Origin: Actinomycetospora lutea
Lineage (GTDB): Bacteria > Actinomycetota > Actinomycetes > Mycobacteriales > Pseudonocardiaceae
Length of the DNA: 64,000 nucleotides
Direction: 5' to 3'
Assembly (NCBI RefSeq): GCF_028737205.1
Contig: NZ_JAQZAL010000013.1
Coordinates: 62,001-126,000 of the forward strand
In this document: one piece after another, positions 1 through 7,238 of the stretch
How the letters are laid out: every line of letters begins with the position of its first letter
Position numbering within the stretch: position 1 is the first letter of the stretch
Position numbers and translations under genes: made by a program
Notes under the pieces: model-generated
What the model was told of the DNA's origin: nothing
Database searches by the model: none
The model's input: the letters and a program-made list of their open reading frames with translations, nothing else

Positions 1-761
1 TCTCGGGCACGACGTACCAGAGCGGCCAGGTCCTCGGCTTCGCCCTCGGGGGACCGCTGGTGGCCCTGGTCGGCGTCCCGGTCGCGCTGCTCGGCGACGC
101 GCTGACGTTCGTGGTCTCGGCGGCCATCCTGCAGTTCGGGGTGAGCGAGCAGCGCGCCACCGGGGCCTCCGAGCGCGCCGCCGGCCTGCGCGACGGCGCC
201 CGGATCGTCGTGGGCGACCGGAAGCTGCGGGCGCTGGTGGCGCTCGCCTGCGTGTCGGCGTTCGTCGTGACGATCGAGGGGCTCGCGGCGCCGTACGCGG
301 CGGCGCTGGGCGGCGGCCCGGTCGCGGTGGGGCTGCTGCTCGCGGCGAACCCGCTCGGCGCGGCGCTGGGCATCGTGCTGCTCGCGCGCCTCGTGCCGCC
401 CGGGCGTCGCGACCGTCTGCTGGGCCCGCTCGCGGTCGCCTCGTGCGTGCCGCTGATCGCCTCGGCGCTGGACCCGCCGCTCGCGGGGGTCGTGGCCCTG
501 TGGGTGGTGTCGGGGCTGGCGTGCGCCTACCAGGTGCCGGCGAACGCGGCCTTCGTCGCGGCGGTCCCCGACGCCCACCGCGGGCAGGCCTTCGGGCTCG
601 CGGTGACCGCCCTGCGCGTCACCCAAGGCCTCGGCGTCCTGCTCGCCGGCGTGCTCGCCGAGGCGACGGGACCGGCGGTCGCGGTGGCCCTGGCCGGCGC
701 GCTGGGCGTGCTCGTCGCGCTCGGGTGCGCCAGGGCGTGGGCGCGTGCCCGGGCCGGGTGA
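1..761 (+). CDS. MFS transporter, C-terminal part (5' end outside window)
   Basis: The open frame runs in from the left edge (codons from position 3) and stops with TGA at 759-761, so about 253 residues of a longer protein are seen. It is strongly hydrophobic, with about seven to eight Ala/Gly/Leu/Val-rich membrane segments and a short Arg-rich tail. The alternating segments and the 'YQVPANAAFVAAVPDAHRGQAFG' type cytoplasmic loop, shown here only in part, are typical of EntS-like drug or siderophore exporters of the major facilitator superfamily. The substrate cannot be read from this fragment. A strong hairpin follows the stop at once. The convergent neighbour is the DSNWH repeat peptide gene. 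Confidence 0.75.
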   Translation, partial: SGTTYQSGQVLGFALGGPLVALVGVPVALLGDALTFVVSAAILQFGVSEQRATGASERAAGLRDGARIVVGDRKLRALVALACVSAFVVTIEGLAAPYAAALGGGPVAVGLLLAANPLGAALGIVLLARLVPPGRRDRLLGPLAVASCVPLIASALDPPLAGVVALWVVSGLACAYQVPANAAFVAAVPDAHRGQAFGLAVTALRVTQGLGVLLAGVLAEATGPAVAVALAGALGVLVALGCARAWARARAG

Positions 762-762
762 C

Positions 763-809
763 GCGAGGGACGCCCTCGCTGCGTCGGGCGCAGTGAGGGC
801 GTCCCTCGC
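763..809. terminator. 21-bp stem hairpin between convergent genes
   Basis: The arms 763-783 and 789-809 pair along 21 bases with one G-U pair (778/794) and enclose the loop TCGGG. It begins 2 bases after the transporter stop and lies about 60 bases past the stop of the opposite-strand peptide gene. It can therefore serve both strands. There is no U tract, as is common for actinobacterial terminators. The function is inferred from place and shape. Confidence 0.6.
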
Positions 810-867: not shown

Positions 868-969
868 CTAGTGCCAGTTGGAGTCGGCGAAGTGCCAGTT
901 CGAGTCCCGGTGCCAGTTCGAGTCCGCGTAGTGCCAGTTGGAGTCGCGGTGCCAGTTCGAGTCGGCCAC
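868..969 (-). CDS. DSNWH tandem-repeat mini-protein (33 aa, unknown function)
   Basis: GTG at 967-969 follows AAAGGAA (975-981) with 5 bases between, a good ribosome binding site, and the frame stops with TAG at 868-870. The product is Met followed by five copies of Asp-Ser-Asn-Trp-His. The copies are preceded by A, R, YA, R and FA, so the real unit is a 13-residue double repeat ending in Tyr or Phe, present two and a half times. The protein ends exactly on the last His. It has no signal peptide, no Cys and no membrane helix. The gene diverges from the diguanylate cyclase gene and converges on an MFS transporter. I do not recognise the family. Repeated short cores could point to a multi-core peptide precursor, and the Trp-His pairs to metal or aromatic stacking; both are guesses. 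Confidence 0.7.
   Translation of the reverse strand: MADSNWHRDSNWHYADSNWHRDSNWHFADSNWH
871..966. repeat. 39-bp tandem repeat, 2.5 copies, coding
   Basis: Units at 871-909 and 910-948, with a half unit at 949-966, each hold the 12-mer GTGCCAGTT(C/G)GA twice. Differences between units fall mostly at third codon positions (TCC or TCG for Ser) and at the Tyr/Phe and linker codons. The length stays a multiple of three throughout. This suggests that the peptide, rather than the DNA, is kept. Confidence 0.85.
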
Positions 970-1163
970 GGGAGTTCCTTTCGTCGGGATCGCGGCGCCG
1001 GCCGGGACGGGTCGTCCCGCCGACACGGAAGTGGCCCAACGCACACGCTGAGTGGTGAACCCGAGTACGGCGTCGAGCGCCGTGCGCAGGTCGCGCAGCG
1101 TTGACGGAGAGCGACCGCACTGTCACATCCGGCCGCACTCCGCGTCACGTCCGCCCCTCGATG

Positions 1164-1190
1164 TTGGTCAAAGAAGCGGTGTGTGACCAG
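1164..1190. promoter_or_regulatory. Possible operator in the divergent spacer 970-1334
   Basis: TTGGTCA at 1164-1170 and TGACCAG at 1184-1190 form a near-perfect inverted repeat with 13 bases between. The 365-base spacer 970-1334 separates the DSNWH peptide gene (minus) from the diguanylate cyclase gene (plus) and holds no other convincing gene. The dyad is the only structured motif I could pick out. It could serve either gene. Its regulator is unknown. Confidence 0.25.
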
Positions 1191-1334
1191 ACGGCGACTG
1201 GGCGTCAACCATCGGAGTGATCTCTTCCCAATGGGTGACGCCTCCTGCCGAGATCCACAGGTCGTCGGTACCGTGTTCCGCACGCGGACACCACCGGTGG
1301 CGAGTGCCGCCGGACCGGGAGGAGGTCACTCATC

Positions 1335-2822
1335 GTGACGGCGCGTGAACCCTGGAGGGGTCCCATCGACCCCGGGTCCGCGCTCACTCCCGCGCCCGGA
1401 GCAGTCCCGCCCGATCGTTCGGTACGCGCAGTCACCGACGCCGACCTCCCGGCCGGTCCGGGCGGGTCGGTGCGTCCCTGGCGTCCCGCTCGTCGGCACC
1501 GTCACGGCGCCACCGGGTCGGGCACGGGGTCCGGCTCGTCCGCGACGCCCGATGTCGCGCAGACCACACCGGGACGTCGCCTCGACCCCCGGCGCTGGAG
1601 CCTGTGGCAGGCACCCCGCCGGGTCGTCGTCGCCGTGCTCGTCATCGACGTCCTGGCCGTCGCGCTCTCGGTGGCAGTCGCCGGGCTCGAGCCGATCGGC
1701 ACGGCCGACTGGCGCGCGCTGGCCCTGCTCGTCCTCGGGCTGGTCGTCCACGTCGAGACCGCCCGCGGCATCGAGCGGCGCCGCGAGATCGTCGCCGACG
1801 GGCAGCCCTACATCGAGCTCAAGTCGGTGTGGAGCTTCGCCGGCCTGCTGCTGCTCCCCCTCGGGCTCGCGCTCGCCCTGGTCGTCATCACGTTCGCGTA
1901 CTGGTGGCTCCGGGTCAGCCAACGCCCCGTCGTGCACCGGTGGACCTACTCGGCGGCGACCGTCCTCATCGCCTCGGTCGCCGCGTGGGGCGTGCTCGAG
2001 CTGATGCCCGGCGGCCTGCTGGCCAAGGTCGCGGGCCCGGTGGGGCTCGCCGTGCTCGTCGCCGCCGGTCTGACGCGCTGGGTCGTCAACCACGGCCTCG
2101 TCGTGTTCATGATCTGCCTCAACGCCCCCGGCACGCCGTGGTGGAAGCGGCTCGGGGCGCCCACCGACACGCTCATCGGTCTCGGCGCGCTCGCCCTCGG
2201 CGCCGCGCTGGCCGTCGTGGCGCTGACGACGCCGTGGCTGCTGCCGGTGCTGCTCATCCCGGTGATGGGCATGCACCGCGGCTTCCTCATCCAGCAGTTC
2301 GCCCGCGCCGCGCGCACCGACCCCAAGACCGGGCTCGCGAACGCGTCGGCGTGGCGCGACCAGGCCGACCGCGAGCTCGCCCGCCTGCGGCGCCGCGGCG
2401 GCGAGCTCGGCGTGATCATGGTCGACATCGACGCCTTCAAGGCGATCAACGACCGGTACGGGCACCTCGTCGGCGACGCCGTCCTGCGCGCGGTCGCCGA
2501 CACCCTGCGCACCGAGGTCCGTCCCTACGACGCCGTCGGGCGCTTCGGCGGCGAGGAGTTCGTCGTCCTCGTGGCCGAGGCCGGGCGCGAGCAGGTCGGC
2601 GCCACCGCCGAACGCCTGCGCCGGCGGATCAGCGAGTGCGAGGTCGCCGTCTCCCCCACGCTCGGCGGCGGCGTCGTGCGGGGCCTGACGGCCTCGATCG
2701 GCACGGCGTCGTACCCGGAGGCCTCGCACGACCTCGACGGCCTCATGGTCAGCGCCGACACCGCGCTCTACGCCGCCAAGCACGGGGGGCGCAACCGCGT
2801 GGAGTGCGCTCCCCCGCGCTAG
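1335..2822 (+). CDS. Membrane-bound diguanylate cyclase (GGDEF)
   Basis: GTG at 1335 follows GGGAGGAGG (about 1318-1326). The 495-residue protein has a Pro/Arg-rich N-terminus, then about six membrane segments between residues 95 and 310, then a GGDEF domain (about 325-495). The active-site motif is GGEEF (about 405-409), so it should be catalytic, making cyclic di-GMP from two GTP. An RxxD inhibitory site (RPYD, about 396-399) lies five residues before it, so product feedback is likely. No EAL domain is present. The membrane part resembles the MASE-like sensors of actinobacterial GGDEF proteins, but the signal is unknown. It diverges from the DSNWH peptide gene, and the next gene converges on it. 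Confidence 0.9.
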   Translation: MTAREPWRGPIDPGSALTPAPGAVPPDRSVRAVTDADLPAGPGGSVRPWRPARRHRHGATGSGTGSGSSATPDVAQTTPGRRLDPRRWSLWQAPRRVVVAVLVIDVLAVALSVAVAGLEPIGTADWRALALLVLGLVVHVETARGIERRREIVADGQPYIELKSVWSFAGLLLLPLGLALALVVITFAYWWLRVSQRPVVHRWTYSAATVLIASVAAWGVLELMPGGLLAKVAGPVGLAVLVAAGLTRWVVNHGLVVFMICLNAPGTPWWKRLGAPTDTLIGLGALALGAALAVVALTTPWLLPVLLIPVMGMHRGFLIQQFARAARTDPKTGLANASAWRDQADRELARLRRRGGELGVIMVDIDAFKAINDRYGHLVGDAVLRAVADTLRTEVRPYDAVGRFGGEEFVVLVAEAGREQVGATAERLRRRISECEVAVSPTLGGGVVRGLTASIGTASYPEASHDLDGLMVSADTALYAAKHGGRNRVECAPPR

Positions 2823-5724: not shown

Positions 5725-5736
5725 GTCGTTCGGCGT

Positions 5737-5780
5737 ATGTGAGCGAAATTCCCGGCTATAGCCGGGAATTTCGCTCACAT
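5737..5780. repeat. Palindromic element, family A, copy 1
   Basis: This is a perfect 44-bp palindrome with arms 5737-5758 and 5759-5780, ends ATGTGAGCG and centre GGCTATAGCC. It lies between convergent genes, 12 bases past the YbdK stop, and its right arm contains the TGA stop (5775-5777) of the SDR gene on the minus strand. A left flank GTTCGGCGT is shared in similar form with copy 2. It probably folds in RNA as a two-way terminator. The shared ends and centre in several copies suggest a mobile or amplified element. Confidence 0.85.
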
Positions 5781-7238
5781 GGGGGGCGCGAGGGGGATGA
5801 CGGCGGCGCGGGCGGCGATACCGCGGGCCATGGCGCCGAAGACGGCGGGCGCGCCGGCGAGCAGCGCGCGACCCCAGACCAGGCCGGCGAGGCCCGTCGG
5901 GACGAAGCGCACGGCGAGGCGCAGGTGCGAGCCGTGGCCCGACACGTCGGGGTCGACGGCGAGCTCGAGGGTCAGCCGGCCGGGCGCGCGCATCTCCGAG
6001 CGGAACCGCAGGCGCACGCGCGGCTCGACGACCTCGACGCACCAGCCGTCGACCACGTCGCCCATGGCCAGCGCCCGGCGCGCGGGTCGTCCGCGGTACC
6101 CGCCGACGCCGCCCAGGAGCTGGTCGGTCCAGCCCCACACCGTCCACACGCCGAGTGGCACGAACCAGCCCGCCTCGCCGCCGATGCCGTCCACCACCGC
6201 CCACAGCTCCGTGACGTCGGCGGGCGAGGGCTCCGTGGTGCTCCAGCGGTACACCGTGCCCCCGGAGCCCGCGGGGTCGGTGGGTCCGGCGAGGGCGGGG
6301 TCGTCGTCCGGGGCCGGCGGCTCGTCACGCCGGCCGAGTGCCGCGCGCACCGCGGCGTCGTAGGTCGTGCGCCCGCCCGGCGGCGGCCCGATGACGGTGA
6401 GCACGTCCTCCTCGGCACAGACCAGGTCGTCGGCGAGGGACTCGATCAGCGGCGTCGCCAGCTGCCGCGACAGGGGCGTGAGGGCCTCGACGACCCGGCC
6501 GGCGAGCGCGGGCCCGCCCGGCGGAACGGGGACGGGGACCGGCACCACGACGCCCTGCGGCAGCCCCGCGAGGCGCAGGTAGCGGCGGATGAGCTCCAGG
6601 TAGCTCAGGACGTCCGGGCCACCCACGTCGAAGCGCCGGTTGACGTCGGCGGGCAGGTGGAGCGCGCCCACGAGGTAGTGCAGGACGTCCGCGATCGCGA
6701 TCGGCTGCGTGCGGTGGGCGAGCCACGGGACCGCGGGCAGCACGGGGACGCGCTCGGCGAGGTAGCGGATCATCTCGAAGCTCGCCGAGCCGGATCCGAC
6801 GACGATCGAGGCCTCGAGCGCGGCGGCGGGGACGTCCCCGGCGAGGAAGACGTCGGCGACCTCCGCGCGGGAGGACAGGTGCCGCGAGGGGTCCGGGGAT
6901 GCAGGCCGCAACCCGCCGAGGTAGACCAGGCGGCGCACCCCCGCGTCGGCGGCCGCCGTGCTGACCGTCCAGGCGGCGGCGCGGTCGCGCTCGGGGAAGT
7001 CGGGGCGCTCGAGGGCGTGGGCGAGGTGCACCACCGCGTCGGCGCCGGCGACGAGCGCGGCGACCGCCGCCGGGTCCGCCAGGTCGCCGTCGACGGCGTC
7101 GACCTGCTCGTCCCACCCGGTGGCCGCGAGCTTCGCGCGGTCGCGGACGAGCACGGCGACGTCGTGATCCTCCTCGAGCAGGCGCCGCACGAGGCGCACG
7201 CCGACGTACCCCGTCCCCCCGATCACCGCGCAGCGCAT
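5775..7238 (-). CDS. SDR-type NAD(P)-binding protein with C-terminal DUF2867
   Basis: The first 200 or so residues form an atypical short-chain dehydrogenase fold opening with AVIGGTGYVGVRLVRRLLE, the dinucleotide-binding loop, followed by HLAHA and 'VYLGGL' segments like those of NmrA/YbjT proteins. From about residue 320 the protein changes to a START-like DUF2867 domain ('GWFVPLGVWTVWGWTDQLLG' region and 'LRFRSEMRAPGRL'). This two-domain layout (487 residues) is common in actinobacteria, with no known substrate. ATG at 7238 is the natural start. The C-terminal Met and the stop codon lie inside the palindrome at 5737-5780, so insertion of that element may have reset the gene end. Confidence 0.85.
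   Translation of the reverse strand: MRCAVIGGTGYVGVRLVRRLLEEDHDVAVLVRDRAKLAATGWDEQVDAVDGDLADPAAVAALVAGADAVVHLAHALERPDFPERDRAAAWTVSTAAADAGVRRLVYLGGLRPASPDPSRHLSSRAEVADVFLAGDVPAAALEASIVVGSGSASFEMIRYLAERVPVLPAVPWLAHRTQPIAIADVLHYLVGALHLPADVNRRFDVGGPDVLSYLELIRRYLRLAGLPQGVVVPVPVPVPPGGPALAGRVVEALTPLSRQLATPLIESLADDLVCAEEDVLTVIGPPPGGRTTYDAAVRAALGRRDEPPAPDDDPALAGPTDPAGSGGTVYRWSTTEPSPADVTELWAVVDGIGGEAGWFVPLGVWTVWGWTDQLLGGVGGYRGRPARRALAMGDVVDGWCVEVVEPRVRLRFRSEMRAPGRLTLELAVDPDVSGHGSHLRLAVRFVPTGLAGLVWGRALLAGAPAVFGAMARGIAARAAVIPLAPPM

Follow-up and report, generated by a model that had tools for sequence, protein, structure and literature searches.

Short Trp peptides encoded by tandem minigenes or fused repeats beside membrane diguanylate cyclase genes of actinomycetes

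A small open reading frame (ORF) with five DSNWH units was characterized in a 64,000-nucleotide stretch of Actinomycetospora lutea DNA (assembly GCF_028737205.1, contig NZ_JAQZAL010000013.1, positions 62,001 to 126,000; the window in the following). The ORF is best explained as the fused multi-unit precursor of a short Trp peptide that would be the cognate ligand of a membrane diguanylate cyclase encoded by the divergent neighbouring gene, an explanation that we consider rather probable, though far from certain. Sequence comparison indicates that the tiny genes found in such pairs with a cyclase gene are a widespread bacterial family, present in many copies and often only seven codons long. 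The evidence for a dedicated functional pair of peptide and cyclase is strong.

The frame runs on the minus strand from a GTG start at 969-967 to a TAG stop at 870-868, and its product of 33 residues is V/M-ADSNWHRDSNWHYADSNWHRDSNWHFADSNWH. The original prediction had described this ORF with its AAAGGAA ribosome binding site, GTG start and 2.5 copies of a 13-residue unit, all of which was confirmed; the strand, which it did not give, is minus. At the DNA level, the repeat is a 39-bp double unit with Tyr or Phe at the joint, and its Tandem Repeats Finder score of 157 exceeds that of every other row among the 26 listed for the window. The mechanical ORF spans 868..1044, as the frame stays open upstream of the GTG. 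The start at MADSNWH is favoured over this longer frame because of the ribosome site and because the scan described below recovered the same start behind a ribosome site in several relatives (L021, L023, L071 and L072). The ORF stands alone, convergent with a major facilitator superfamily (MFS) transporter gene on one side and divergent from the cyclase gene, which encodes a GGDEF domain, on the other. The original prediction had left the ORF unconnected to these two flanking genes, and the family reaches far beyond DSNWH.

Within the genus, a single-sequence search gave matches in 14 of 18 Actinomycetospora genomes (E 1) and a profile search in 17 of 18 (E 0.1); the sole genome without a profile match (G010) is a 59% complete assembly. 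The frame is kept in all inspected flanks, with five units in the window's species and four to eight in others. One species (G004) has four units, one of them without its Trp. The forms of divergent species include MRISSDSNWTRDSNWS..., MRPDSHWNRDSHWN... and MRHDDSNWV...RDAHWRDAHWR. Given the matches across the genus, the preserved frame and the variable number of units, the repeat ORF is not a product of chance. Differences between the DNA copies are largely silent, as predicted, with a pN/pS of 0.088 for the first five units in six species (15 non-independent pairs). The comparison of sequences thus shows the repeat unit to be a peptide-coding frame under selection. Several draft assemblies break within the repeat (G011 C45, G014 C219/C468, G015 C24/C14), so that drafts may understate the number of units and readily miss the gene.

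Outside the genus, the profile matched RGSEWHRGSEWHVTGSEWHRGSEWH at L037 and a comparable ORF at L067 in g45, another genus of the same family. Both are likewise divergent from a homologue of the window's GGDEF gene. As this was the only gene common to all 17 loci compared, a survey was collected by the GGDEF gene and not by the peptide. It comprises 105 cyclase loci, which are the best matches and their paralogues and not a random sample. The kilobase upstream of each cyclase was scanned for a ribosome site followed by ATG or GTG and a Trp motif, i.e. either two Trp, each preceded by the same dipeptide, in an ORF of at most 110 codons or a Trp in the last four of 6-12 codons. Such ORFs were found on the divergent strand in 89/105 loci, one of which (L133) is a false positive, compared with 2/105 on the other strand and with a mean of 5.5 and a maximum of 8 of 105 loci in 20 dinucleotide shuffles of the same regions. 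Extra false matches stand beside a convincing one in the tandem rows of L117 and L127 and in the tiny rows of L102 and L206. Two loci without a strict match (L103, L106) contain a single GRPTEW or GRPHEW unit on a looser look; L104, L105, L201, L203 and five g14 loci showed no convincing peptide, the looser look included. In a long-branch cyclase clade of genus g14 (L090, L091, L097, L098, L099), both the peptide and the MFS gene are missing from the flank (5/5), as if lost together. Among more distant cyclase homologues, the scan found 8/20 loci on the divergent strand vs 0/20 on the other, with peptides such as MLRGVTWI, MSSGIQWV and MRGWKWS (two copies); some of these eight matches are single and maybe due to chance.

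The peptides differ between loci. Fused repeats are of the kinds STDWTF (six units), RPTDW (three), GRPADW (three), GNEW (four to seven), SNNW (four) and PTDWT (five to eight), and other unit types are SNWS, SHWN, SNWV, TDWT, NDWR, NNWT and NSWD. Trp is kept in nearly all units, and a His after Trp is limited to part of the family (SNWH, SEWH). The earlier suggestion of a Trp-His-rich metal or nucleic-acid binder was therefore rejected. No description of the peptide family was found in the open-licence literature, exact peptide strings included, and Pfam and NCBIfam searches with four peptides returned nothing relevant. The weak resemblance of one divergent peptide to ArgJ (E 0.05-0.09) is taken as chance.

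Several genera and families instead encode each unit in a complete gene of some seven codons behind a separate ribosome site, and these genes follow one another in tandem. Examples are arrays of six MRDNNWT (L094), eight MRDNTWT (L119) and eight MRDNNWN (L122) minigenes and, at L126, of eleven MRDTTWS/R; within the scanned kilobase, arrays comprise 1 to 11 copies. Once trimmed to the inner start, 114 of 134 minigenes have exactly seven codons. The commonest peptides are MRDNTWT, MRDTTWS and MRGNSWD, and few end in Asn (e.g. MRDNNWN). Since forms intermediate between a minigene array and a fused repeat exist (MRENTWRENTWK, MMRDTNWVLRDTNWSW), the window's gene is most readily understood as an array whose units have merged into a single frame. 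These separate unit genes in relatives of the partner gene support both the selection on the peptide and the multi-core architecture of the original prediction. When 102 distinct units, out of 109, were taken from 26 loci and aligned at the start codon, the information content was highest in the 24-nt ORF (1.51 bits per base), lower in the ribosome-site stretch (0.63) and lowest in the flanks (0.18-0.19); the selection pattern partly fixes Met, Arg, Trp and the stop, and leaves flanks and silent sites free. Silent sites vary freely, with Arg encoded by CGC (55) or CGT (45) and Ser by both AGC and TCC.

The distribution of the minigenes in whole genomes follows that of the cyclase. A pattern of the MRDxxWx minigene with its ribosome site gave 84 rows at 80 sites in 18 of 21 genomes, and the reversed pattern gave none. 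By coordinates, 77 of the 80 sites lie at the cyclase. The others are the head of a helix-turn-helix gene (G543 C4:932330, judged a chance match), a site in G533 (C91) and a site at a contig edge in G598 (C29) with the same peptide as the array on C16. The three genomes without a match (G491, G615, G572) have peptides that do not fit the pattern. Similarly, the pattern M.RGVTW. matched seven sites in 7 of 39 genomes, all seven beside the cyclase and on the opposite strand; the remaining 32 genomes have another peptide or none.

Cyclase paralogues of the same genome have different peptides. The second cyclase of f22 genomes has an MRGNSWD or MRANSWD array, and all 17 rows of an MR[G/A]NSWD pattern, in 6 of 18 genomes, lie at this second cyclase. 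The same six genomes also have MRDxxW arrays at the first cyclase. This pattern missed G491 and G408, where a looser scan shows MRANSWD. In genome G075, three cyclases are accompanied by GRPNDW, GNEWT and GRPNEW peptides, respectively. On a tree of the 105 membrane domains, peptide type requires 17 changes vs 63 for shuffled labels; labels were assigned by an automatic rule (that of L123 is wrong), and related sequences inflate the clustering, regardless of which the within-genome paralogue pairs hold. As judged from these comparisons, the peptide goes with a single group of membrane cyclases, whose genes lie on the opposite strand, and the paralogues have their own peptide types.

Homologues of the cyclase's membrane domain were matched in 373 of 390 genomes of the family (E 1e-6) and in 84 of 394 genomes drawn from the class (E 1e-10). 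Among 296 genomes drawn from the phylum (E 1e-15), which may contain few families that have the domain, only the window's genome was matched. Plasmids (query from L116) and phages (query from the window) gave no match to the domain, and a mobile element was rejected on this basis. A GG[DE]EF motif, predicted to form an active diguanylate cyclase site, is present in 98 of the 105 cyclases, including that of the window. The other seven have GGDEL or GGEEL (L078, L085, L089, L093, L094, L102, L206) and may be inactive, serving as receptors only. Pfam returned no match in the membrane part of the window's cyclase. In each of two structural models, one of the window's domain and one of a homologue, the top 14 VIA rows are components of energy-coupling factor (ECF) transporters, which suggests an S-component-like fold. 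According to the accessible part of a study on S-component-fold receptors (5TMR histidine kinases and GGDEF proteins), GGDEF is among their listed outputs (PMC11109136). As in these receptors, a predicted membrane fold would precede the signalling output in the window's protein; that part of the source names no peptide ligand for them (PMC11109136).

The third gene of the locus is less constant. A homologue of the window's MFS gene lies in the fetched flank of 64 of the 105 cyclase loci. Of 87 loci with a peptide, 63 contain it, as does 1 of 18 loci without a peptide (Fisher p 1.2e-7, with no correction for relatedness or for differing flank lengths; L133 and L141 are in the group without a peptide). 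The single exception, L106, contains a single-unit peptide on the looser look. When 24 loci, most of 20 kb, were compared, only the GGDEF gene (22 loci) and the MFS cluster (18 loci) were common. In 16 of the 18, the MFS gene is ordered as in the window, the two others being L188 and L191. The next commonest gene clusters occur in 7 of the 24 loci, all from genus g89, and clusters shared between genera reach at most four loci. By Pfam, five of the latter encode an acyl-CoA dehydrogenase, a cation ATPase, an SPW-repeat protein, an M28 peptidase and a short-chain dehydrogenase. The absence of a maturase gene, reported for the window alone in the original prediction, extends to these loci: no typical maturase recurs between genera, although not every neighbour was named. 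The best NCBIfam matches of the MFS protein are transport families, including weak ones to EntS and to the 'ryptide export' model, all below cut-off. These comparisons show the putative MFS transporter to be the usual third gene of the cassette.

We infer that the peptide is exported, processed and bound by the cyclase. The neighbouring MFS protein would probably export it, and the peptide would then bind its own cyclase from outside, as a private ligand. Export and binding from outside are proposed because of the MFS linkage and the predicted fold, which resembles that of ligand-binding proteins. The many copies and the very short genes would raise the peptide dose.

In Gram-positive pheromone cassettes such as Agr, ComX and Phr, a peptide gene, a membrane receptor gene and a transporter gene are neighbours. 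The loci described here are similar in that a peptide gene, a receptor candidate and a transporter gene lie together and that the paralogous pairs appear to be private. They differ from those cassettes in that a diguanylate cyclase is the candidate for the receptor, that neither a leader nor a signal sequence is evident and that the peptide genes can be as short as seven codons and stand in tandem. As in a peptide signalling cassette, the peptide is linked paralogue by paralogue to a membrane protein that is a candidate receptor.

Alternatively, the peptide stays inside the cell and binds the cyclase or its membrane domain from there, as an activator or inhibitor; the fused repeats would then provide multivalency, and the MFS gene would be unrelated. 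This is the alternative that survives best, unlikely as it is on balance. A signal sequence is not evident by eye, and fused forms such as DSNWH in five to eight units could function uncut. Moreover, the linkage to the cyclase is tighter than that to the MFS gene, which is missing from the flank at both SEWH loci and 22 other peptide loci. The near absence of the MFS gene where the peptide is missing (1/18) and the resemblance of the modelled membrane domain to ligand-binding ECF components argue for binding from outside instead.

A further alternative, which we regard as improbable, is a precursor of a ribosomally synthesized and post-translationally modified peptide (RiPP) whose maturase is encoded elsewhere; the cyclase would regulate the system and the MFS protein export the product. 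The weak matches to EntS and 'ryptide export' and a ThiF-nitroreductase gene close to the arrays in g89 loci are consistent with it. So are the length and layout of the genes, which recall microcin C (PMC6495379) and biarylitides (PMC13417212), both as far as the accessible parts of these sources describe them. The lack of a typical maturase recurring between genera among the neighbours named in the 24 loci weighs on the other side, as does the limitation of the ThiF cluster to seven g89 loci in which the wider gene order is also shared. Furthermore, most types have a single aromatic residue per unit, and pairing with a specific cyclase paralogue is unexpected for a product gene.

The likeness to microcin C is partial. 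Its seven-residue precursor (MRTGNAN) is described in the accessible part of the source as encoded behind a strong Shine-Dalgarno sequence and re-translated by the same ribosome, with 71 rounds fitted in vitro for seven codons and a smaller number for longer genes (PMC6495379). As in this system (MccA/MccC), the minigenes have seven codons, mostly a Met-Arg start, a strong Shine-Dalgarno sequence and a pump gene nearby. By analogy, repeated rounds of translation on such a short gene may account for the frequent length of seven codons. The minigenes share the seven-residue precursor, whereas the window's fused form does not. In contrast to microcin C, a C-terminal Asn is not kept, Thr, Ser and Asp being commoner, and ThiF, the MccB-type enzyme, recurs only near g89 arrays and was named in one g89 locus. 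Up to 11 copies, fused forms and a diguanylate cyclase as the usual partner are further differences. Like the genes described here, those of biarylitides are minimal bacterial genes of few codons that automatic annotation overlooks, again according to the accessible text (PMC13417212). Biarylitide precursors of five codons are accompanied there by a dedicated P450 (PMC13417212), whereas most types in the present family have a single aromatic residue. No P450 was seen among the recurrent neighbours named by Pfam; neighbours found at a single locus were partly named, and P450s elsewhere were not searched.

It is very improbable that the arrays act as RNA or DNA, i.e. as regulatory RNA, operator repeats or ribosome traps, with the peptide incidental. 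The units are tandem direct repeats, and very short ORFs can tie up ribosomes, which would fit this reading. However, conservation ends at the start and stop codons (0.18-0.19 bits per base in the flanks vs 1.51 in the ORF), fused forms keep the frame across up to eight units, and Ser is conserved even where its codons are of the unlike TCN and AGY kinds. Rfam gave no match at six array loci or at the window's ORF, the only rows in the latter search being two to mir-610 at 5732-5785, distant from the ORF and below the gathering score. A leader peptide of a Trp or His attenuator, suggested by the Trp-His pairs of the window's form, deserves practically no credence and was rejected, since no same-strand gene lies downstream in the loci inspected (both in the window, where a strong hairpin separates the two, and at the two SEWH loci, the gene that follows is convergent) and His is not kept across the family.

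The features of the locus are listed in Table 1. The hairpin between the small ORF and the MFS gene is perhaps a shared terminator of both; it has no T run, and a scan for consensus terminators found none. A scan for promoter consensus sequences gave no match. The recurring block between the divergent genes is a possible promoter or operator region.

Table 1 Features at the small ORF locus of the window
Feature	Position	Strand	Basis
MFS transporter gene, 3' part (start lies before the window; whole gene L020:9553-10761)	3..761	+	Pfam MFS_1
Hairpin, 15-bp plus 5-bp, between the convergent small ORF and MFS gene	763..809	.	Fold z -4.95 for 755-867
Small ORF, 33 codons, five DSNWH units, fused form of peptide array	868..969	minus	Sequence and homologues
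Ribosome binding site AAAGGAA, 5 bases before GTG	975..981	minus	Sequence
Intergenic block recurring across Actinomycetospora species, approximately WLTPSRRLVT in an unused frame	1183..1211	.	By eye, translated flanks
Membrane diguanylate cyclase gene, divergent partner of the small ORF	1335..2822	+	Pfam GGDEF 3.4e-41
Membrane domain, predicted ECF S-component-like fold	1593..2342	+	Model, replicate on homologue
GGDEF catalytic domain with GGEEF and RxxD	2313..2798	+	Sequence, Pfam

Other neighbours were noted in single groups of loci. In genus g89, the ThiF-nitroreductase gene (L174:4526-6667) lies about 2.8 kb from the array, and its cluster was found only in seven g89 loci of the 24 compared. 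Within the 20 kb around the same array, genes for a BldD-like regulator (L174:1561-2073) and a 744-residue GAF-GGDEF-EAL protein (L174:2273-4507) are encoded. Both clusters occur in all seven g89 loci, the genes being named in L174 only. BldD is an effector of cyclic di-GMP (c-di-GMP) that controls actinomycete development. The region of the g89 arrays may belong to a larger c-di-GMP island, and these neighbours fit a role in c-di-GMP signalling; as the g89 loci share the wider gene order too, such order within one genus is weak evidence. A motif with at most one mismatch to the BldD-box consensus TNACNCWGNGTNA was present in 21 of 89 intergenic regions (e.g. L024, L027, L084, L113) vs 2.9 in shuffles; permuted consensus controls reach 11 and related loci inflate the count, so that the motif is not relied on. 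A gene for an M28-type peptidase (L179:13267-14403) recurs near arrays in three f22 loci from g116 and g72 (L179, L180, L193). A role as processing enzyme is possible, as is ordinary synteny.

Seven-codon genes escape annotation, and a conserved peptide family of several actinobacterial families has thus apparently been overlooked. If the peptide and the cyclase are ligand and receptor, the pair would offer a testable answer to the question of which signals are sensed by many of the orphan membrane diguanylate cyclases in actinomycetes. The paralogue pairs within one genome (MRDNTWT or MRDTTWS vs MRGNSWD) are suited to a comparison of specificity. In a wider and more tentative picture, which we hold to be quite possible, several families of Actinomycetes would run multiple private peptide channels per cell, each consisting of a seven-codon array or fused repeat, an MFS exporter and a diguanylate cyclase receptor with an S-component fold. 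If this is true, the genes would rank with the smallest signal genes known and, to our knowledge, their products would be the first pheromone peptides of ribosomal origin to be sensed by a diguanylate cyclase. Cell density or kinship would then be written directly into c-di-GMP.
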